From NCBI GenBank assembly GCA_026770025.1, contig JAMXDE010000012.1, positions 1,550,001-1,614,000 on the forward strand: 64,000 bases of DNA, written 5' to 3'. How positions within the stretch are numbered: position 1 is the stretch's first letter; every line of letters starts with the position of its first letter. The notes under the pieces are model-generated. The model saw only the letters and a program-made list of their open reading frames with translations. It made no database searches and was not told the DNA's origin. This DNA comes from Craspedostauros australis. Lineage: Eukaryota; Bacillariophyta; Bacillariophyceae; Mastogloiales; Achnanthaceae. The position numbers and the translations under genes are program-made. This document shows positions 22,934-36,744 of this stretch, in pieces.

Positions 22934-25900
22934 TCAGAAGCATTCTGTGCAGCACGAGCATGGCACACGATCATTCGCTCCGCAATCAGCCGATAGGTAC
23001 ACGAAGCGGAAGGCCGAGCCATCCGTGAGATCGCAGATTGCGCTGTTCAGTTCTCCGCCGAGGCTTGGGTTGTTCTGCAATTCCAGAACTTTCAAACTGG
23101 CCAGGGTGGCCACTTCCGCAGGGATGGTGCCTGTAAAATTGTTGTCATCAAGCCGCAACTGCGTCAAGGCAGTCAACTGTCCCAATCCGGTGGGGATTTT
23201 ATTGGAGAATGAGTTACGGGAGAGGTGAAGCTCTTCCAGAAACTCCAGAGCATTGAGCTCTGGTGGAATCATTCCGGTGAGACCTTCGTCAACTCGGTTG
23301 GTCAGATGGAGGTATCGGAGCTGTGACATGTCCCCGATGTATGTCGGGAGCGATCCTCTCAGCCGACAATTGCTGCCTGTGACGGGAGAGCAGATGGTTG
23401 CCCGAAATTAAAACCGGAGTGAATGATTAACAAAGCCATTTAGGAAAACAGGGTCAGAACAAGAAGTCAAAGGCAGACCTGGAGCCGGAGATGGAGGGGA
23501 GAAGGCACACATGAACGAACAGGTATCAGCAGTAGGATGGGTGGTTCGATGGTGGTAGCACACGGAACTTACATTGGATGCTCTGCAAATTTTTGCGACT
23601 ACCTGCCCGCAAGAAGTTCTCAACGATCCACACGAAGTCGTTGTTGTCAGCTTCGTTTTGCTGCACAGTTGACGTACGCAAGTATAATGTATGGTGGAAA
23701 ATCGATTGAGAATGGAATGTAGAACAACCGAATGGATACATGCATGCAACGGCAGAGCAGGAGAGTTACAAGAAGAAGCAACGCAGATGTGAGTATTCTA
23801 CGCTGTTGTGGCGGAGTGCATGAAATGCAGCGCTGTTAATCCCACCTGCCGCGCACGCACAAGTTCATGAACAGACACATCACATCGCGCGCGGGAGTTG
23901 TATCAACTTACGAGATTCATGGTTTGCAGAGAATCCAAGGAGACAGGAAAAGCTGGTACCGTCCCGTTCAGCGAGTTGCCTTGCACTTCGAATCGGACCA
24001 GGCGATCGAGAGTATTTAAGCGCCCTGGCAGGGTGCCAGACAGTCTGTTGTTGGAGAGCTGGATGGATTGCATGATCCCAAAGATGGCCAACTTCGACGG
24101 TATGGGACCAGATAAATCATTGTCATTCAGAATCAGGTACTCCAGCCGTCGCAAGGCTGCAACTTCCGTCGGGATACTCCCGCTGACTCTTGAGTTGGAG
24201 ATGTCAATATAGTAGAGGTTGGACAAACGCGTGAATGCCTCTGGTGGAAGGGTGCCGGTCAAGTCGGCGCAATTGACTGCATTCATCAATGTGTGTGTGC
24301 GTGTATCAATTTGTACCATACGAGTATGGTGCCATTGTTGATGCCGTGTAAACATTTCATGTTTCATCAAAGAAGCGACGGAACGGTGCAAAAGCTGTCA
24401 GTATCGATCAAAGGTTGCGAGGGTGGTACTTATTGGTACGCCTGAGCAACGCCCCTGCGCTGCTTCAATTGGCAGGGAGACGGTCAAGCGAATCGCCAGA
24501 ATCGACTGTCGTTTGCGCTTACCACTGAGGACTTCGAAGATGCTGCCGCGAATGGAGTCTAGAATGGTCTCGATGTTGCCGGAAAGCTTGCCGCAATTGC
24601 GTTGAGACTGAAGCACAGCGTAGTATGTGGTTGGCGATGGGTTGGTGATCACAATGTGCCAAGCAGACGCGGGATAGGTGTACAAGTGGGTTTGCAGCGA
24701 ATGGAGTGATGTCAGGATTTGGCTTCACTTCGTTACATTTCAAACGGTGGCACTCGAACGAATGCTGAATTCATTTCACTCGCTTCCACGCCTGTCACAT
24801 TCAATCTTGGGCCCAATCGAACACTCAGCAAACATGCTGACGACTTACCAGTTGGACGCGACGTAAATTTCGATTCTCGTAGTTGAAGGTGGGGATACTA
24901 CCGCTCAATCGATTTCCCTCCAAAAATAAGGCGATCAGATCTGGCAATTTCGGGACCTTGGGAGGGATAATGCCCGTAAGGTCATTGTCAGACAGTAAGA
25001 TCCACTCGAGATTGTTCAAGTTTCCGGCCGCCTGTGGGATCTTGCCGGTGATCTTGTTGTCCCGTAGATCGATAACAGCGAGGCTCAAGAATCTAATCTC
25101 CTCTGGGATGGTCCCAGTGAGATTGTTGCTTGTCAAGGTGAGCCAGACGTCTGAAGTAGCAATGGGACAGACGAACCCGAACGTGTTGTCTTCGATGTTC
25201 GGATCAGGAACGTTCCATTCACAGATCGGTCGCGGCGTGAGGAATCCCATCGAGTCGATCCATCCGTCACCCCCGAGAGAAAAGTAGAGCAAGGTCACGA
25301 TGTACCTATCCCTCAAGTCGAAGGACCGCAAGGTGGACGAGAAGTCTCTGTCCTCGTTGATGATCCAGTTCAGGGCTGCACTTTGCGGTGTGTCTTCTTC
25401 GAGCACCAAATTTCCGGACACGCCGAATGCAAGCAGTTGCGCTTCTTCTTCAAACATATCAAAGGCCGCCGGAGCGCTCACGGGGGGCAACGTCGTGTCG
25501 CCGAATGGCGTCATGGATGTGGGTCGCGAAGTTGGCGCAGAAGTGGGTTGGTTCGACGGACTCTCCGTCGGCGCCTTGGTTGGCATTTCTGTCGGCACCT
25601 CCGTAGGCACTTGCACAGGCGACAGCAATTGTCCTGAATCCGGGTTGCCGTCGCTGCCAGACGACTGACCCAGGAAAATGCCCGCGAGGACACCGGCAAC
25701 GGCAATCACGAGGCAGCTCAGCACGGCGATGATTCGCCTGTTCTTCGTGGTTCGTTGCGAGATCGCGTCTTTGACCTTGATCTCCATGTCCCGATCGCCC
25801 TGCTCAACGTCATTGTCGCGAGCGTACATTGCGGCGTCACCGTTCGCCGGTTTCCGATTCCCTATCGGATCATCGGTATCATGAACTTCCTGAACCTCGT

Positions 25901-27371
25901 GAACAACTTCGCCGGCAACAACATTGGTGAGGATGTCGCGTTGCACCTCCCTGCGGATTTCAGCCGCCATGAGATTACGCTCCTGATCGAGCTCCGATCG
26001 GAGCTGATGACGAAAGTCTTGCAGACCCGCCAATTCGTCTTCTTCAACCGCGCGTGCTGCCACAAGGACCGTGCCTCCGTCCGGGGTTGTTGCGAGGCTT
26101 GGATCGTCCCCATTGTAATTGCTGTTGCCGTAGTTGTCGTCTGCCGCATCGAGATCGGATTGTAAATCGTAGTCGTCGTCACGTTGGTGGCTGTGGGAAT
26201 CGATTCCTGCGATCGCGTGTGCACCGACGGTAGTATGGATATCGATGTTGGTCATGATGTCGTCATCGTTGCTGTGTGGAGTGGCCGCCGTGTCCGCAAC
26301 CGTGGCACTTTCGTCCTCCACGTTGCCCCCGTTATGCTGGTCTGTGGCTGTGCTCCTTGAACTCGATAAAGATGGCTTTGGGGCACCATTGTTGATGCCT
26401 TGTGGGGAAAATCCGCCTCCATTGGCCGTGGATGCTGACCCATATCCCTTTTCCAGTCCCAACGTCTTGGTCGCCGACATCGAGGTGCTTGCAGTGGCAA
26501 CAACAGCAGGCTCCAGTCGCATGCCCGCCTTCTCGTCGGAAGCACCATCGGCCTTTTTCTGAAACTCCATGGAAGACCTCGTGACCGTTCCCACGGCGGA
26601 TTTGCGACCATTGTCTTCATCCAGCAGACTGTTGATCCAAACTTGGTTGCTGGTTGAATCCTTCTTTGGGTCCTGCTTTGCGGAAGTCTTTGCCGGTCCG
26701 CGGACGGAAACAGCGCCGACCAATTGTGATGGAGCGGCGGAAGAGCGTCCTTGCAGTTGACCTTCGACCTTTCGAGCGTACTTCGCCGCTGCATCGTCTG
26801 AAGTCACTTGCGTTGCCCCGGGAGTGCTCGCCCGGGCATCCCTCTCGACGCGCTTCGCCAATTCGTCATGCCGCTGCTGCCTTGCTGCATCGACAGCAGC
26901 CGCGGGACTTGACGTGGAGCTTCCGAAGGACCGCTTCAGTTTGGATTGCACCTTGTCGTCCAACCCGGCGACGGAGTGCGCGCCAACTCCGGCCGGCTTT
27001 GTTGCCATGCGTTCCATCAAAACGCGCCGCCTTTGATGGGCGCTTGGATGTTGGATCTCTTCACCTGGCTGCTGCGCATCCATGGTCTGTTGTGGGGCGC
27101 TGTGACGAGTTTCCTTGGTGTACTTCTGATTGATTGCGTCGAAGATCTCACCTGCGTCGTCGTTGTTGCTCTCGCTGCGCTCGCTTTTGTCTTCCTGTTC
27201 GTCCGTTTTGTGGTCTCCTGGTGCAGGTTCTGTGGTTGCCTTTTCGCCGTGGGAGGTCACATTCTGCCCATCAGATGCAGCGTTCTCGTCGCCTGCACCC
27301 ACGTGAGCATCATCGCCATCCTCCTTCCCTTGCTTGCGAGCAACGTCGTTCTCATCCGTGATCTCACTCAT
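22934..27371 (-). CDS. LRR membrane protein with PT-rich stalk (5 exons, about 1167 aa)
   Basis: Exons 24849-27371, 24523-24607, 23912-24276, 23573-23660 and 22934-23376; introns are 196-251 bp with GTAAG(T/C) donors and CAG acceptors, and the phases fit. The start chosen is MSEITDEN at 27371; upstream frame to 27467 is probably leader. Residues 1-540 are hydrophilic and disordered (Ser, Asp, Gln-rich). A transmembrane helix lies at about 545-567 (IIAVLSCLVIAVAGVLAGIF), followed by a stalk at about 582-610 with PTEVPTEMPTKAPTE repeats. LRRs run from about residue 750 to near the end, with LxxLxLxxNxLTGxIPxE spacing, and a Cys-rich end (CSCCTECF). The predicted arrangement is type II: a cytoplasmic disordered N-terminus and an extracellular LRR domain. 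LRRs of this type resemble the extracellular plant RLK/RLP class. The ligand is unknown. Confidence 0.85.
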
Positions 27372-28061
27372 CGTTCCTTCCTCCAGTTCACCGCAAGATC
27401 GGGGGTATGCACAAGCGCGCTGGATCGATGTCTGTCTTCTTTGGCTTTCGCGGATGTGTGAACGCACAACTCAACTTCTTGATCAATGCAAGTCAAGCCA
27501 AGTCACAGCGGGAAGCTTGCGGGCAGAGTATGGCATGTACGAGTATTCTATGTGTGATGACCCAGTTCTTGCACATCTCGCACCATCACGATGTCCCATG
27601 CCGCATGCGCATCCGTGGCATGCTCCATGGCACGCTGACATGGCAGACGCCTGAAGAGAGGAACAACTTCATCTTGCATCCATTTTGTGCTTGGATGTTT
27701 GCATTCGGTCATGTTTTCGCCTTCGCGCAGATCATGATGACTTGAGCTCTTCCCCTTCCATCCAAGGAGCGCTAGGTACATTATTAGCCCTTTTATTGTC
27801 GTGACAAAGACAGGATTGCTGATTGGTAGCAGTCCCGTGTTCAATCGTAGCGTGCTTTTCTACGTTGTCATGTCTAGAGATCACGTTTTCGGATGTGTTT
27901 CGGCAATTCCACAGGTAAAGCAACTTTCCACGCTGTTCCTGTTCAGTCTCTCTCTCTATTTCTATGTTCTCTATTACTCTATTTCTCTATTTCTCTATTG
28001 GCATTGATGCTCAATTGAGACGGGGTGTGCCAAAAAGGTCATGATGATTCATCAATCACGT
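27372..28061. other. Intergenic stretch, no supported gene
   Basis: This separates the LRR gene start from the helicase stop. Around 27940-28000 there is a pyrimidine-rich run of 'ctctatt' units. No domain-bearing frame is found. Confidence 0.45.
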
Positions 28062-31000
28062 TCAAGGACCTTTCGCGTACGGATTGAAAATCTTCTTGCG
28101 GTTCGTCTCTGGTGTCGTCATCGAGGCTGGCATTGAGACTGGTGTCGACGGTGCATTTGTTTCGTCGCCGCCTACTTGGGTGATCGCAGGTGGCCGGATC
28201 CTTGCGTCCACGAGAGCGGCGATGCTGTTGGGACTGCCCGCTGGTCGTGCTGCAATTACCCTTGCAGTTGCTGCCATCATCTTCTCGATTGCCGCGGCTT
28301 GCGAGCTTGCCCTGCGTCCGTCGACTGCTGGCTGGGAACTGCCTGGTCCTGGACTTGCAGTTTCCGTCGCAACGGTTGTGGATATGGCAGTTGCTGCTGC
28401 GGCGGCGGCAACGGCGCTAGTTGCAGTTGCGACGATTCCATGTTCACCACCATTCGGTGTTGGTCTGCTTGCCGGTTGGGTGCTTCCACTTTGATCCGAC
28501 TCCCATTGATCGCGGATTTTCTTGCAGTGCCTGGGGGCGCGATCAAAGAATGCGGCGATTGCTTTGCGTAGTCCTGCGTACCCACCGACGATTGGATTGG
28601 CGCCCTGACCAAAGTTTTGGCGTGGCGATAGCGTCCGGATGGACGAGCGCATCCATTTCGGAAGCGCCTGGTGTTGGCTGCAGATGCCTCCGTTGGGAGA
28701 GCCGTCGTCGCAGAAGCGGTGGTCGAGAAGGATGATGGCGCCGTAATCTGCACCATGACGGATGCATCGTCCGAGCGCCTGCGCGACCGCCCGGTATGCT
28801 TGTTGCGCGTACCATTGACTGCCAGAGAGGAGGGCGAGGTTTTTGCAGACATTCCTCTGTTCGTTGTTGTACGCTTGCTTGGCTGAGATGGACCGATCAT
28901 TCCTGTTGGGGTACGGGATACCAACGCAGATCACGCATCGTGCGTAATCGTCGTTGAACGAGATGCCTTCGGACATCTTGCCGCGGTACACAGCCAGCAG
29001 GATGCACTCGCCGGTCTGCTCGATGGACCTCGAATACTCATCCCGGGATTTTTCAAAATCGTCCTGACTCCCCGTCGGTTCGACGATCACACATCTTTTT
29101 GCGTCCTGAAAGCGTCCCCAAACATTGGACAACCCCGTGGCGCGACGGTTGTATTGACTGTTGCCGTTTCTTCTGCGAAATCGATTCCTGTTGCTGTATC
29201 CATCGAATCTGTTGTTTTCGAAACCAGGTTCGTTTGGATTCCAACACCTCACGCATTGTTTGAGAACGCTGTACGATGGCAGAAATATGAGCACACCGCC
29301 TCTGGGGATACTTTCAATGATGGTTGCGATGGATTGGCCCAGACGTTCGTAGTATCCAGGCTGTCTGTAGTTAGAATACGTAAACGCCAACCGCGAACCA
29401 TCTGGGAAATGACCAACGCCAACCGCCAGCAACTGATTATGTTTGTCGATGACATGGTTGGCTTCCAACGGTGGAGGGGTCAGTTGCAAACGATGTAGCC
29501 AATTTTCTCGTTGCGCGTTCGTGTGTGGGGGTGATGCTGGCAGGCCATTGGCCACTCCGCTTTCGTGTTTGACTCCATTCGGCACCGCAGCACCTGCTCG
29601 TCTTGCGGGTGATGACATTGTGCGCTCGTCTCTTCCTCCAGGAGCACCAGCTCTTTGAGCATATTGCGGAGTGGCAGTTTGAACACCTGGAGCAGCACCA
29701 CGCCTGTGATGACGTATTAAATCCAGTTCTGCGCAAAGAGATGGTATCGGCGCCAAAGAGCCGCTGGCTAGGATCACTGATCGGCATTGAGCTGCCAAGG
29801 GTCGCATCAGAATCCCGGGTGACAGCAATCGGAAGACCAACCGCGATTCCCACTGCGGTCGCGATCCGTCGCAGAATAGGCCATGTGCAACGGCCGCCTG
29901 GGTTGGGTTCTTTCGTTTGCAGAGCTCGCAGATAGGAACCACTCTGGTCGGATTGGCTTCCGTGCGTGGGCTGATGAATGGGATTTGTCGGAGAGACTTC
30001 CCTTGGTACTTAGTCTGTCGCTTTCCGCGGTGAGGCTTCCTGTTGTGCGCAACCCATTCCGCTTCAGACATGCAGGCGTAGTCCATGTTCACCGTTGCCT
30101 TCATCTCGTATAGCATGTAGTAATGTCTGTTTTGGTGAAAGAGATGAACGGTGTGATGATGTTTGATGGCGGAAGTTGATGGAGCAAGCCCAAACGTTGT
30201 GAGTTGATGGATGTGATTTGTGTTGGTAGTATCCAAGAAGGGCGAGCAACAAACAATAAGGACAAGGTCATGAGCTCCCCTCTCGTACCATACACAATCA
30301 CCGATCAAGCGCCATCATCGAGCAACCATTGACTTACTGTGGATTCTTCACGGCGAGATCGAACCTGGAAATCAACTTGGAGAGCATTTCGACAGTGTTG
30401 TTCACTCCAGCATCTTCTTTGCCACTGTATGACGCCAGTTCCAATGCGATGATGCTGAGGTCCCGCTGTAACCCTGTGACAATCTGCGGAGTCACTCCGA
30501 GCTCTGTCATGAAGGGCATGCACCCGATGGCTCTCCCATTCACCCCGATGCCTGTTGGGCCACAGAAGGCGACCTCCTCTGAGTGATTGTCTGGGAGCCT
30601 CCGTTCCTGGTGGAGATTCAGAGCTTTCTGACGTTCTGCTCTCAGCCAACCAGTGTCCGAGGCAGCATGATCAACAAGAATGATGCGACGCAGTTCCGTC
30701 AGATGTGAACAAGGCATCATGATGCAAAAGATGGTGACAACGCTCAATGCCAGGCTTGGGCAAGGCAATGGAGTACACAGTTGTATCAGCAGAGCAACGC
30801 ATGATGGGTCGGTGAACCGAATATTACGGCGCAATAGTGTGGCGCGTTTCCACCATGATTTGGCACAACGACGCAGACATTCATGTATTCAGATTCGTTC
30901 ATTCGTTCATACATCCATCCATGCCTTCTTTATCACACGTTCCAACTTACGAGCACTTCCTTGAAATTTCTTTCGCAGACCCCTCATGTGCCAAACGACC

Positions 31001-34000
31001 TTCTCCACGAACACCAACAAGGTATGCGCTGACTGCTTCATTCCGTCTTGCTTTGCAGTATCCTGACCATCTAGTTCGTTCTGCCCAGGTCCAGCATTGC
31101 GAATACCGGTAACGAAAGCTCTGCCCGCGCTCGCCTTGTTTGCGTGGAACGATAAGAAACGGACCAATCCGCACAGTTCGATTTCGCCGAATTCTCCGCT
31201 GCCGCTTTCGCAGAGCAAGTCTTCGATGTTGTGCGCTTCGTCCAGGACGACGACGTTTCCCGGCAAGCTGACAGCAGATCGTTTGCGAATTACTGGATCC
31301 AGGAGGTAGTTGTACGGGGCAAAGATAAGTTCGGCGTGGGGTATGAGTCCTCGGGATACGTAGTATGGACACGGCGCGTGATCCGAGTACGCTTCAGAGA
31401 GATCGATGCTGTTGGGCGCAGACTGGTTCTGGATCGAATTTACAGCTTCGCCATTGCCAAGCTGAGCGGTCGTATCGGCTTGCTTGCGCAATATTGTCAA
31501 CGTTAGCGGGTCTTTCTTCGTATTCAATATCTTGGCCTTGGTTTGGTCCAACGACCATCCCGTTGTGTTGGTTCCGTTGACTCCGATGATGACATCACCT
31601 GGCTCCACATACACCGAGTTCTTCTGCACTGCCCCCTGTGGCTGGACCTTCTCGACGACGCAAGTCTTCTTGTCCACATCGAACGACATGGTGATGCCGA
31701 GCTTTCCGCCGTCTCTGTAGAAGGCAATGTCCTTCTCCAGGTACGGGTTCTTTCCAAATGTGACGAGATCCTCGATGTCGTGCACGCCCACCTTCGACTT
31801 CTCTCCGCCCAAGGAGCAGCAACTAATCTTCTCCACTTCCATCGCAAAACGCGATCGCACCAATTCGGCAGTTCGTTTGCTCGTCAGCTGTCGGAAATGG
31901 CTACATGTGGGTCCGTCCTTGCTGCCACTCTTTCTGTCTGCCGCATCCTCAGCATCATCTTCGTACGACGGCGGTGCACGTTGTCCTGACCCAGTATAGC
32001 CAACTTCATCGGTGTCATACATATCGCGATTCACGGAGTGCTCTGCTCTGATGATAGACCCAGCCCTCGGGTTGTCGTCGTCATAAAGCAGCTGTTTGTT
32101 TTTCCAGATCTCCTTCCGGTCCGACTCGGTTCGATTTTTGCGTCCAACGCAGGCCTGCGTTAACTCTTGCCCCTTTTTGTTGCCATTCTTCAAATCTCTG
32201 TAATCAATGCAAGTCATGTAGCAGAGAGGTTAGCGAGCTGTGTGGACACATGTTCTGGGCGAGTACAGCTGGACGGCACAGCACAAAATGCGAGACGACA
32301 GGAACAGGAGCCAATAGTGTGAAAGGAACGTACCGATTGATGCAAAGACGATCACGACTTCCCATGACCGTCATGCGCGGTCTGTACGGCGTCTTCCGAA
32401 GGCTGGATACCATCTGTGCCACTTGCGAATGTGTGCGGGAGCAGTAGATGATGACAGGATTCAACCGTTCCGTCACGTCTTTGTCACTGTCACCGAATTG
32501 TTGGCGGCGTGCCGTCTCTTGCGTTCCTGGTGACGAAACTGCCGGTGAACCCTGCGGTCGTGGCTTTGACGTGTTGGGTGAAGCAGCCGTATCTGCATGC
32601 TCCTGGATTGATGGCAGCTCTGGTTCTCTGTCAGTCACTGCCTGGAACGACGCAGCAGTATCGCCAGCAGGTTTTCCGTTCGCGGTAATGTCCATTTGCG
32701 TCGCTTCTGCATCTCGCGAAGCCCGTGCCTGCTTTTGGGCTCTAAGTTTCTTCGCTATTTCCTTGCGCTCCACCTGGAAGAAGTGGCGCTGCCATGCCAG
32801 TACCGTGCACAAGATGGCAGCGGATTTGCCCGTCCCCGTCGGGCTCTCCAGCACCACGTGCTTCTTCGTCTTCAATCCTTTCAGGATGTGGATCGCCATC
32901 TGTCGCTGGGGTTGCATCATCTTCGGATACGGCCATCCGATTTGAATTCGGTTCATGACGAGCGACTTGTGAATCTTCAGCGAGTCGATGTCGCCGTCCG
33001 TCGGGAGGACTTCCGCAGGTTGGTTTTTCTTTGTGGAGGGGTCGTTGTCGTCGCCCTTGACCAAGAGGGCGAGATTCTCGTCGAATATTTCCATGATCTT
33101 TTTCTGAGCTGGTTGCCGCTTGGACCTGCTCTTGTGAGGTAATGGTGGCCCCTCATTGTTCGACCGCTGATTGCTGAATTCATCGACTGGATTAGGCAAA
33201 GCGCTGTCATGGGAACCACCGCGTGATTTTGTGGAAGGACGACTTCTGATCCGAACCATGCCCGCTTCCTGCGGTGCCGAATGCCGTGGTGGTTGCTTCT
33301 GGTTCGCCTGCACGTGCCATTGTTGCCGTTGTCGATGTTGCTGTTGCTGCAGCTGATGTTGGCGGTGCTGTGATTGCCGCGCCTGACTCATCTGTTGCAT
33401 GGACATATTGATGGCGTCCAGAAGTTCCACCTCGTCCCAGTGTTCGGTCTTCTGGGTCTTTGGTTTCTCTTTGCAATGCTCCTCCCACGTTTGGCATTGA
33501 CTTGCGGGCTTGTCGCATACGACGCAGTAGCATTTGGCACAGTGGAGCTTTGGATCATCGTCAAAGCTGTGGACCCCGCAGTCTGGACGTTTGTGTATGT
33601 AATCGATGTTGGGATTGGTCATTGTGGATTTCGTGACTTCCACCTGCGAGGCCAGAGGGTACAGATCGTCTATCCCTACATCTGCGTCTGCGTCTTCTGC
33701 TGTTGATCCTGTGGCTGGGTTGGATGATGGGAGCATTGACTGCCCGGATGATGGATACAACGACGATGGGTCTTCTACAATGATACACTCCAAGTCGTCA
33801 TCGGAGCTGTCGTTGTCGGCATTGTCGTCATTGATGCCATTGATGCCATTGATATCATTGATGCCCAGCATTGTGTTCGGGATGATGGGGTCTGAGCCGT
33901 TCGACCCTGAATGAGGATACGACAGTCCGAGAGCACCATCGATACCATCGATACCATCGATACCATCCCCACTGCGATGACGCTGTCGCTTGGGTGGAGG

Positions 34001-34060
34001 AGGGCGGATACCAAGACAAACGCAGCTTGCCTGGCTGTCTTCATCCTCGGGGTCGCCCAT
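28062..34060 (-). CDS. BRIP1: FANCJ/BRIP1-like Fe-S DNA helicase with embedded PDZ domain (4 exons, about 1778 aa)
   Basis: Exons 32334-34060, 30951-32197, 30338-30635 and 28062-30126; all introns are GT-AG and phases agree, but the third exon's acceptor (30636) is the least certain. The start chosen is MGDPEDEDSQ. Residues 1-370 are disordered, with a Cys/His cluster near 180-215. Q-motif and Walker A (ESPTGTGKSAAILC) lie near 390-410, motif Ia IIYCSRTHSQ near 545, and possible Fe-S cysteines in LCIN, TQAC, PTCSH and CPYY. The DEAH box VVLDEAHNIED is near 895, with helicase domain 2 from about 1140 and motif VI QALGRCIRHG near 1540. A PDZ domain (about 728-803, carboxylate loop KLGITM, then GDVIIGVNGTNT) sits between EDLVTFGK and CPYYVSR. 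The family unwinds 5'-3' and acts in interstrand crosslink repair and G-quadruplex resolution. The C-terminal 200 residues are low-complexity, ending KIFNPYAKGP. Confidence 0.88.
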
Positions 34061-34827
34061 TCTCCGTGTTCTGTACAGTGTCTCGGTTGTTGCTCTTCTC
34101 TGCTCGCAGCGAGTTTGTGTCCAACACTGCCTTTCGCATGAACTCTTTTCGAGCAGTGTACAAGCATTACTCGGGAAGATTGTGCTGATCGCATGTGCAG
34201 CGCTCGCATGGATTACCATGCACGATGATGTCTGTGAGTGTGAGTGTGAGTGTGAGTGTGGGTGTGGGTGTGAGCATGGGTGGAGGACAGGACAGGAAGG
34301 CATCTGTTTCTCTCGGCGCGGTGTGGTTGGCGCACACAACAATGCAGCGCAGCACATCACTGTGGCGAAAATCTGTGGAGTTCCCGATTTTGGCGCCACC
34401 TTTTAGCGGTGGCAAGCGACTGTCGCTTCTGTGTCCCAGTCGTGTCCGACTATATTGTGCAACGCCTGTGACGTCACTCAGCATGACATTCTTCCAATCG
34501 AGTCATGTATAAGTTGAGACACGGACGTTGAGTCGCGAAGCAATTGGTCAACGGACCAAAACACTTGACAAAATGACCACAGAGAGGGAAAGGGGAAAGC
34601 GATCGGTTTTGCATGTTTTTGCCTACACTTCGCTCACGTCTCCACGCACCTGAGGTTGATGATCGACCAAGGTCTCCCATTCATCATCCAACACAGTATT
34701 GTGGAGTGATCCTTTGTATAATACCTACTCTACTCTGTTGGATCGCATCCAACGACATATAGCACAAGCAAATCCTGAAGTGTCAAGTGGAAAGAAGCAT
34801 TGCGTCGCAAGATATCGAATTGTCGAG
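34061..34827. other. Divergent promoter region between helicase and kinase-like gene 1
   Basis: The helicase is transcribed leftwards and the kinase-like gene rightwards from this 767-bp stretch. It contains the GAGTGT repeat at 34233-34274 and a TATAATA at 34717-34723, about 105 bases before the kinase ATG. The helicase frame stays open without an ATG-supported domain up to 34399, which is interpreted as leader. Confidence 0.5.
34233..34274 (+). repeat. GAGTGT microsatellite
   Basis: Seven imperfect copies of GTGAGT/GTGGGT lie upstream of the helicase start. On the minus strand it would read as a His-Ser/His-Pro run in the untranslated leader. Confidence 0.8.
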
Positions 34828-36744
34828 ATGGTGGTCCAAAGAAGAGCCGCAAGCCATCGCGCTCGGCCTGCAGGCATCGATCCTCCAGCTCCATTCGGAT
34901 CACCTTCTGCCTCCGTTGAAGTCAGCATGGGCAATAACGCCAATGCGAATGCAAATGTGGGAGGAAGAAAGTTCGCGGAGCAACGCAACAAGTACTCCTC
35001 TGCTGCGAGGAAGTCTCCGTCCATGGTACTCTTCTGGCCATGCATGGTGCTGCTCTTCATCGCAGCGGCATTCTTCGGAGCCCTGGATGATGCTTACTAC
35101 ATGATCTTTGGCGGTTCTGACCAGAAGTACGCGGCATATCATCGAGGGCGCCACGAGCCATCTGTGCCGTCTTCGGCATCTCATGGACATCACGGACCGC
35201 AGTCGGTATCGGTGGCTGCCAACCTTGGCTCCGCTTTGAGCTGGGCCGGTGTCGAGCAGGAGGACGATGGCCAGGACAACCCCTTCGAGCACTTTCCTGA
35301 GTACGCCTCGGTTCGCACCCTGGCACAACCCATCGACAGGGACCTTGTGATCTCCAGAGAATCCTTGGATTTCGAGACCTACGTCCCAAGCCGCCCGCGT
35401 TCCATGGCCGTGTACTTCACAAGCGCGACGCGTTCGCACTTCCATTCGATCGAGCTGCTGGACCCCAACGATGATCCCACGCATCATCAGGGCGTGCAGC
35501 TGCCGCACGATCACAAATTCAAGGGATTTCCCGAGACTGAGGAACAACGCAAATTCCAAAAGGAAACGCTGGCCAACTCCCGCAAGTACAAAAAGGCGCT
35601 GCCGGATCCATTCGAGACAGACGAGTGCGCCATGCAGTACGAGTGGCAGGGCGGATACAATCCGACGTGCAACCTCGTGCTGGAGCAGGACATGACGTTG
35701 GTGTTCGATCCGCACTACAAGCATTTGCCCAATTATCCGATGGAGGTTCCCAGTCATCCATTGGAGGAAATTGTGGATGATGAGGGCGAAGACGATGAAG
35801 ACGATACGAACGGACACCGCCGTCTAGCGGAAGAGCATCACAAACGCCATCATTCCTTCCATCATCCCATCAAATACTTGGCTGGCGGGTACTACCGAGA
35901 CGTCTGGAGGATGATCACCCCCTTGGCCGACGAAGAGAATGATGGCCACGACGGTCGTTCCGTCCTCAAGACCCTACGATACATGCACGACTACACCAAA
36001 CGTAACTTCGACCGTCATCGTCGCGATGCTGTGGCCATGGAACGCCTGACGGGATCCGAATACATCATGGACATCTACGCATTCTGCGCCAACTCGGGCA
36101 TGTTCGAATTCGCAGACGGCGGATCCTTGGACGATGCCATCTTCGGTGGCAAAGACGGCGGCGGATGGAGCAGCAAGGAGCGGCTGGTGGTTTCGCATCA
36201 GGCGGCGTCGGGTGTTGCCGCGGTGCACACGACCGATTCCAAGACCATGGCCGCCATCTCGCACACGGATATCTCGGCGTCGCAATTCGTGTACTTGAAC
36301 AAGCTGGGGATGTTCAAGCTGAATGACTTCAATCGCGCCCGTTTCATCCTGAAGGATCGCGAGACTGGGAAACCGTGTCCCTTCGCTGTGGCCAGCAACA
36401 AGGGCAAGTTCCGCGCGCCGGAAGAGTACGTGAAGCCGCATGTGGAGACGGAGAAGATCGACGTGTTCAGTTTGGGCAACATCCTGTACATCATCCTGAC
36501 GGAGACATTTCCGTTTGAGAAGCTCAGCGAGGACGATGCGCAGGAAGAAGTGCGCAAGGGAGGGCGGCCGCACATATCGAAGGAGCTACTAGAGTCGACG
36601 GATCCATTCCTACAGGCGCTGGTCAAGGCCATAAACATGTGCTGGCGACAGGATCCCAAGGAGCGATCGTCGGCCACAGAAGTGGTCGACCATTTGGATA
36701 AGTCCTTGAAGAAGCTAGGCGTCGCAGCCAAGGGAGAGAGGTAG
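34828..36744 (+). CDS. Single-pass membrane kinase-like protein 1
   Basis: About 638 residues from the first ATG (MVVQRRAASH); MGNNANAN at 34927 is an alternative. A transmembrane helix at about 64-86 (MVLFWPCMVLLFIAAAFFG) follows a short basic N-terminus, giving type II topology. The middle contains HKFKGFPETEEQRK and an ETDECAMQYEWQ...PTCNLVLEQDM segment also present in the next gene. The kinase domain runs from about 390: glycine-loop position LAGGYYRDVW, SVLKTLRY lysine, catalytic loop SHTDISASQF (Asp kept, Arg of HRD replaced), metal-binding loop LNDFNRARF (DFN for DFG), FRAPEEYV and DVFSLGNILY. Catalytic Lys and both Asp are present, so activity is possible; the Gly to Asn change is unusual. 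The extracytoplasmic or luminal placement of the kinase domain is inferred from topology. Substrate unknown. It is intronless and tandem with its paralogue. Confidence 0.8.
   Translation: MVVQRRAASHRARPAGIDPPAPFGSPSASVEVSMGNNANANANVGGRKFAEQRNKYSSAARKSPSMVLFWPCMVLLFIAAAFFGALDDAYYMIFGGSDQKYAAYHRGRHEPSVPSSASHGHHGPQSVSVAANLGSALSWAGVEQEDDGQDNPFEHFPEYASVRTLAQPIDRDLVISRESLDFETYVPSRPRSMAVYFTSATRSHFHSIELLDPNDDPTHHQGVQLPHDHKFKGFPETEEQRKFQKETLANSRKYKKALPDPFETDECAMQYEWQGGYNPTCNLVLEQDMTLVFDPHYKHLPNYPMEVPSHPLEEIVDDEGEDDEDDTNGHRRLAEEHHKRHHSFHHPIKYLAGGYYRDVWRMITPLADEENDGHDGRSVLKTLRYMHDYTKRNFDRHRRDAVAMERLTGSEYIMDIYAFCANSGMFEFADGGSLDDAIFGGKDGGGWSSKERLVVSHQAASGVAAVHTTDSKTMAAISHTDISASQFVYLNKLGMFKLNDFNRARFILKDRETGKPCPFAVASNKGKFRAPEEYVKPHVETEKIDVFSLGNILYIILTETFPFEKLSEDDAQEEVRKGGRPHISKELLESTDPFLQALVKAINMCWRQDPKERSSATEVVDHLDKSLKKLGVAAKGER

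Follow-up and report, generated by a model that had tools for sequence, protein, structure and literature searches.

A PDZ domain inserted in the Fe-S region of a FANCJ-like helicase of the diatom Craspedostauros australis, a candidate docking module at the ssDNA gate

Introduction

Fe-S helicases are mostly linked to their partners via parts outside the motor. Excerpts of PMC12501782 describe RPA as an interaction partner that enhances unwinding by human FANCJ, and MLH1 as a direct interactor. In RTEL1, the harmonin homology domains are a protein-interaction module of an Fe-S helicase and are linked to RPA (PMC10853778, in excerpt). Residues of the Fe-S domain itself have been described in XPD, where Y192 and R196 grip the backbone of ssDNA near the pore according to passages of PMC9262607 and PMC11479942. 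In FANCJ, a passage of PMC4204437 describes the Fanconi mutation A349P, which adjoins C350, as uncoupling translocation from helicase activity.

Here, we have analysed a stretch of 64,000 nucleotides from the diatom Craspedostauros australis (contig JAMXDE010000012.1, positions 1550001-1614000; hereafter the window) and searched the genome to which it belongs (74.8 Mb, 90 contigs). We describe a FANCJ-like helicase gene, copy A, that carries a PDZ domain between the third and fourth cysteines of its Fe-S cluster. This PDZ-FANCJ architecture may have been entered earlier in eukaryotic domain-architecture databases; among open-access papers sought for PDZ domains in FANCJ, BRIP1 or DEAD_2 helicases, in diatoms or in stramenopiles, no title describes the arrangement. 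What is new is a PDZ-like insert at the same site in a second FANCJ-like gene, copy B, about 28 kb away.

Results

Gene model of copy A

Copy A is a minus-strand gene at window positions 34060-28062, with four modelled exons (34060-32334, 32197-30951, 30638-30338 and 30126-28062, stop included) that are separated by introns of 136, 312 and 211 bases and encode 1779 aa. Splice sites were picked by eye from GT/AG ends, reading frame and the match to the paralogue and to FANCJ, and the model is least secure at its start codon and at the beginning of exon 3. The protein has an Fe-S SF2 helicase core with DEAD_2 and Helicase_C_2, and alignment places its cluster cysteines at C573, C592, C674 and C852. 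Exon 1 (32334-34060) encodes the N-terminal region, Walker A (VLESPTGTGKS, from 32854) and C573, as assigned by coordinates and by DEAD_2, which scores 36.5 bits in the enclosing frame. Pfam, alignment and a PDB match assign to exon 2 (30951-32197) the cysteines C592, C674 and C852, the PDZ insert and motif II (LDEAHN, from 31245). The second RecA-like lobe is encoded by exon 4 (28062-30126), where Helicase_C_2 (PF13307) scores 144.6 bits in the enclosing frame and the protein ends in KKIFNPYAKGP.

Near the N-terminus of copy A lies a Cys/His-rich element, HCAKCYCVVCDKPASQCQTWEEHC and its neighbours (33437-33580, minus strand), which is perhaps metal-binding. No Pfam model matched it at E<=0.01, and a protein search of the diatom's own genome at the same threshold found HCAKCYCVVCDKPASQCQTWEEHC in copies A and B only, with the copy B element at C10:1549190-1549285 (locus L023). 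Between the second and third Fe-S cysteines, copy A has an acidic low-complexity insert of about 70-80 residues (window about 31920-32140, minus strand), and the corresponding insert of copy B is shorter. The end of copy A (28062-28100, minus strand) resembles a stretch in the C-terminal part of the diatom's own RTEL1 (L025), which reads KKRPNPYAKSP; this short shared motif may be a common docking signal.

Copy A is probably an orthologue of FANCJ

Among PDB sequences, exon 4 of copy A matched FANCJ at 140.8 bits versus 54.7 bits for yeast Rad3/XPD, and the best match of exon 2 was FANCJ 9ej9 (56.3 bits). The whole protein of the own RTEL1, however, also had human FANCJ as its best match, at 317.8 bits (nine PDB sequences listed, none of them named RTEL1). 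Since this score is even higher, a best hit alone is no proof of the orthology of copy A. In a tree of six sequences, with XPD represented in part, copies A and B grouped with human FANCJ at an ultrafast bootstrap of 74, and the branch of copy B was the longer (0.50 vs 0.32 for copy A). Copy A is 36.5% identical to human FANCJ over 598 aligned columns and 31.9% identical to the own RTEL1. The RTEL1 ARCH model PF23109 scored 84.9 bits in the own RTEL1, and it had no match in the four frames of copy A at E<=0.01 or in the frames examined of copy B at E<=1. An RTEL1 identity is thus not favoured, given that this model matches L025 and neither copy A nor copy B, and that the tree, at its support of 74, places both copies with human FANCJ. 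These comparisons suggest that copy A is FANCJ-like and probably the orthologue of FANCJ.

Searches of the own genome returned seven exon-level matches each for DEAD_2 and Helicase_C_2, which were assigned to five genes. Searches of viral contigs and genome contigs with two queries from copy A (A1 and A2) returned zero relatives, as is expected for a eukaryotic gene. A third query (A3) found six loci in the viral contigs that resemble phage DinG-type helicases by eye, and by eye none of the six has the PDZ insert.

The insert of copy A contains a genuine PDZ domain

A sequence-only reading of this DNA had proposed that a PDZ-like fold lies in frame, in one exon, between two helicase segments of a FANCJ-like protein. 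The motifs on which it drew (EDLVTFGK, KLGITM, GDVIIGVNG, LTLTILR and CPYYVSR) are indeed all on the minus strand, in a single frame and a single exon, and the profile check that it had asked for bears out the PDZ similarity. PF00595 matched copy A over model positions 6-81 of 81 with 48.6 bits (hmmscan; cut-off 23.2, E=1.1e-12), which places the PDZ domain at 31489-31716 on the minus strand. When the whole genome was searched in six frames at E<=0.001, this domain ranked first of 23 PDZ matches, with 52.3 bits. The PDZ segment alone retrieved 13 distinct PDB sequences at E<=0.001 (phmmer), all of them PDZ-containing chains, headed by p55 2ev8 (E=1.3e-5) and including syntenin-1, GRIP1 and PDZ fragments of metalloproteases. 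NCBIfam models gave partial matches to C-terminal processing proteases, the match to TIGR00225 (E=1.8e-6) being far below the whole-protein cut-off. AlphaFold2 with single-sequence input returned a pLDDT of 50.9, with strands only and zero helix, a model too poor to bear on the fold. By these profile and sequence matches, the PDZ domain is judged to be genuine and a chance match is excluded. The range proposed earlier, 31500-31760, covers the PDZ domain and its N-terminal linker, but the insert extends about 130 bases beyond it, to the codon before CPYY; the residues then given for the domain (728-803) denote the same segment, but lie about 10 below the 739-813 of the present model.

A recent copy of another PDZ gene was considered as the source of the domain and was rejected. 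At E<=0.01, the copy A insert matched nothing but itself among the proteins of the own genome, and the best score against the copy A PDZ among seven other PDZ loci (L002-L008, of the 22 other genome matches) was 16.8 bits. Four viral-contig loci that matched the PDZ query were dropped as well; judging from their translations, we take them to resemble PurM-type enzymes, and the shared VEPGDVII was taken as chance.

The PDZ domain lies between the third and fourth Fe-S cysteines

In the alignment of the genome's five Fe-S helicases, in which XPD is represented by its first exon only, 126 residues of copy A (N726-P851; 31372-31749, minus strand) separate GK725 of DIEDLVTFGK from C852 of CPYY. The earlier placement between EDLVTFGK and CPYYVSR falls in the interval from C674 to C852. 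The 126 residues comprise an N-terminal linker, the PDZ domain and a C-terminal linker, and they stand where relatives have four residues: KLKA in human FANCJ, NHKV in the own RTEL1, and likewise four in the own CHL1 and XPD. The insert is thus absent from these three paralogues of the same genome.

Immediately after the insert comes the motif C852-P-Y854-Y-V-S-R858-G (31348-31371, minus strand), which contains the fourth Fe-S cysteine and the sensor-pocket residues. From the alignments and the offset to XPD, C852, Y854 and R858 face XPD residues 190, 192 and 196 (the offset is that of the human XPD match range, and the printed alignment is that of yeast Rad3/XPD), so that the insert ends three residues before the equivalent of Y192 and seven before that of R196. 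The sensor-pocket tyrosine and arginine and the four Fe-S cysteines are conserved in copies A and B. P851, directly before the fourth cysteine, aligns with A349 of human FANCJ; the equivalent residue is proline in both copies, valine in the own RTEL1, threonine in CHL1 and tryptophan in XPD.

Copy B carries a PDZ-like insert at the same site

Copy B (L023), a FANCJ-like gene with 1780 modelled residues, shares contig and strand with copy A and lies immediately left of the window. Its modelled start is separated from the window edge by 92 bases and from the end of copy A by about 28 kb, and the modelled protein aligns with copy A from the N-terminal Cys/His element through the C-terminal lobe. 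Between HDIEDLVSFGK and CPYY, the site of the copy A insert, copy B has 114 residues that contain GDWIIKVNGNDT. These matched PF00595 over model positions 38-74 of 81 with 18.1 bits, below the cut-off of 23.2 (E=0.0035 with 24,736 models). Compared directly with the copy A PDZ, the copy B insert gave 26.9 bits by BLASTP (E=1e-5, 12/41 identical) and 11.6 bits by phmmer, where the best of 5000 shuffles reached 9.1; a genome search with the copy A insert at E<=0.01 did not recover it. The likeness of the two inserts is weak and resides in the second half of the PDZ domain and in their common position. The KLGI of copy A faces RRKL in the MAFFT alignment, or KLQM if shifted by two, and the loop glycine is absent from copy B under either alignment. 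The copy B insert appears to be a degenerate, PDZ-like remnant that falls short of a full PDZ domain by the cut-off, and from its sequence and position we conclude that the insert is older than the A/B duplication.

Over 598 core columns, copies A and B are 54.7% identical. The stretches flanking the insert have 51% identity from the third cysteine to GK (27/53) and 53% from CPYY past motif II (45/85), and higher values are found at Walker A (73%) and in the stretch before the first cysteine (77%). Identity is 20% in the PDZ core (15/75), 21% from the first to the third cysteine (16/75 aligned), 27% in the arch (35/130) and 28% in the N-terminal region (93/328). The PDZ domain is therefore among the fastest-diverging parts of the pair, but has others beside it. 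Its fast divergence against better-kept flanks might mean that an interaction module was altered after the duplication, and it is also compatible with relaxed constraint.

Other observations in the window and the genome

Copy A adjoins, in divergent orientation, an open frame of 693 aa (34663-36744, plus strand) that by eye is protein kinase-like with a hydrophobic segment. A large open reading frame at 24825-27470 (minus strand) has a hydrophobic stretch, PTEVPTEMPTKAPTESPS-type repeats and leucine-rich repeats, and is receptor-like by eye.

Model diatoms have few silicon transporter copies, and the 88 exon-level matches of PF03842 on many contigs of this genome are far beyond that; 28 of them span at least 500 of the 513 model positions and are stop-free. 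By these matches alone, the genome would be assigned to a silicifying alga, very likely a diatom. No match listed for this model is within the window. Four of the loci were compared (L034 at C11:710408-712021, L035, L036 and L037). Their DNA is 92.6-97.5% identical over 1.75-1.9 kb (3.5 kb for one pair), and three comparable frames encode proteins that are 96-100% identical, which looks like the recent dispersal of an intron-less unit.

Discussion

We argue that at the ssDNA gate of copy A the PDZ domain acts as a docking module and that copy B has probably lost the canonical groove, a reading to which we give a probability of roughly 60%. On this reading, a PDZ domain was inserted, on linkers, in the loop that joins the third cluster cysteine of a FANCJ-type helicase to the fourth, where it would fold in place, and a later duplication gave rise to the neighbouring genes A and B. 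Copy A keeps its carboxylate loop (KLGI) and, as we read it, helix alphaB starts with a hydrophobic residue, the leucine of WSLDQ. Since both are kept, we infer that its PDZ domain docks the C-terminus of a partner beside the pore through which ssDNA passes at the Fe-S domain. A hydrophobic residue at alphaB1 goes with a class II preference of PDZ domains, and by this one rule the ligand would most likely be of the form hydrophobic-x-hydrophobic-COOH. Through such docking, a partner from repair or replication would be tethered to the fork that is being unwound by FANCJ. In copy B, which is without the loop glycine, canonical binding would probably be gone. For two proteins of the genome examined as partners, the C-termini are EKMKV (RPA1, the large RPA subunit) and IFERC (MLH1). 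The M-K-V end of RPA1 would suit a class II groove; the lead is weak, with one of two ends fitting and hydrophobic-x-hydrophobic ends being common by chance.

Several other explanations of the insert have to be weighed. That the PDZ segment could be a retained intron, a pseudo-exon or an assembly artefact is next to impossible, and we have rejected it. Looser GT sites do exist within the insert (e.g. 31744), and of the 18 strict-donor GT/AG pairs that could excise the PDZ domain, two preserve the frame (acceptor 31409 with donor 32020 or 31966). All 18, however, start from one or the other of these donors, both upstream of the third Fe-S cysteine (31905), which would be lost with any such splicing. 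Besides the strong PDZ score of 48.6 bits, the insert fits the codon usage of the remaining gene best in its true frame out of six (GC3 0.71). A stronger argument than the count of splice pairs comes from the diverged paralogue, which has at the corresponding position a PDZ-like insert whose frame is open; since the insert predates the duplication, it is neither an intron nor an accident of assembly. It is also quite improbable that the insert is a tolerated, near-neutral insertion of a domain in a surface loop that drifts in both copies. Drift would agree with the low identity of the PDZ core (20%, against 51-77% in nearby stretches of the helicase core), and the stretch from the first to the third cysteine, with its long low-complexity insert, has diverged as far. 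Long drift should, however, have erased the domain, which in copy A is still recognized by PF00595, and in neither copy is the frame interrupted.

Possible, but on balance unlikely, is that the PDZ fold serves without peptide docking, as a rigid spacer, as a duplex-facing wedge on the Fe-S domain or as an internal regulator of the helicase. The insert directly precedes the residues whose counterparts grip ssDNA in XPD, copy B keeps it despite losing the loop glycine, and the proline at the A349 site of both copies indicates that the local path of the chain may differ from that of human FANCJ, all of which would suit a spacer; a spacer would hardly need the PDZ-typical loop and the high model scores of copy A. 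It is rather improbable, finally, that the Fe-S gate of this FANCJ is controlled by a ligand, such that a partner's C-terminus bound to the PDZ domain of copy A alters the entry of ssDNA into the pore and restricts unwinding to sites at which this partner is found; copy B, its switch lost, would then be unregulated or have another task. We thus prefer the docking of a partner's C-terminus on the PDZ domain of copy A. If docking took place next to the cluster and the gate for ssDNA, the binding of a partner would be coupled directly to unwinding, and the A/B pair offers an internal comparison, in one cell, of a groove that appears to be kept with one that appears to be worn.

Among known PDZ proteins, copy A is matched over the PDZ domain by p55/MPP1, syntenin-1 and C-terminal processing proteases, which are scaffolds or proteases, and none of the 13 matching PDB sequences is named as a helicase. 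XPD/Rad3 and CHL1/DDX11 (own L026 and L024; PDB 5fmf, 8rev and others) share with copy A the Fe-S core and the sensor-pocket tyrosine and arginine, but they are free of the insert and score lower to copy A. The own RTEL1 belongs to the same Fe-S helicase family, with the landmarks DMEDLVLMGK and CPFY, yet it has four residues in place of the insert and an ARCH domain of the RTEL1 type. The harmonin homology domains, as described in excerpts of PMC10853778, are a different domain from the PDZ of copy A and lie beside the helicase domain, outside the Fe-S region. Closest to copy A is human FANCJ/BRIP1 (9ej9, 9eja and 9ejb), with the helicase lobes, the Fe-S region and the ALGRCIRH and EANHV/I motifs in common. 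Human FANCJ is PDZ-free, has KLKA for the 126-aa insert and has alanine at 349, whereas copy A has proline at that site and, beyond human FANCJ, the N-terminal Cys/His element and the acidic low-complexity insert described above. A docking domain at this place would also be a natural experiment at the A349P spot of FANCJ, where the human mutation uncouples the motor.
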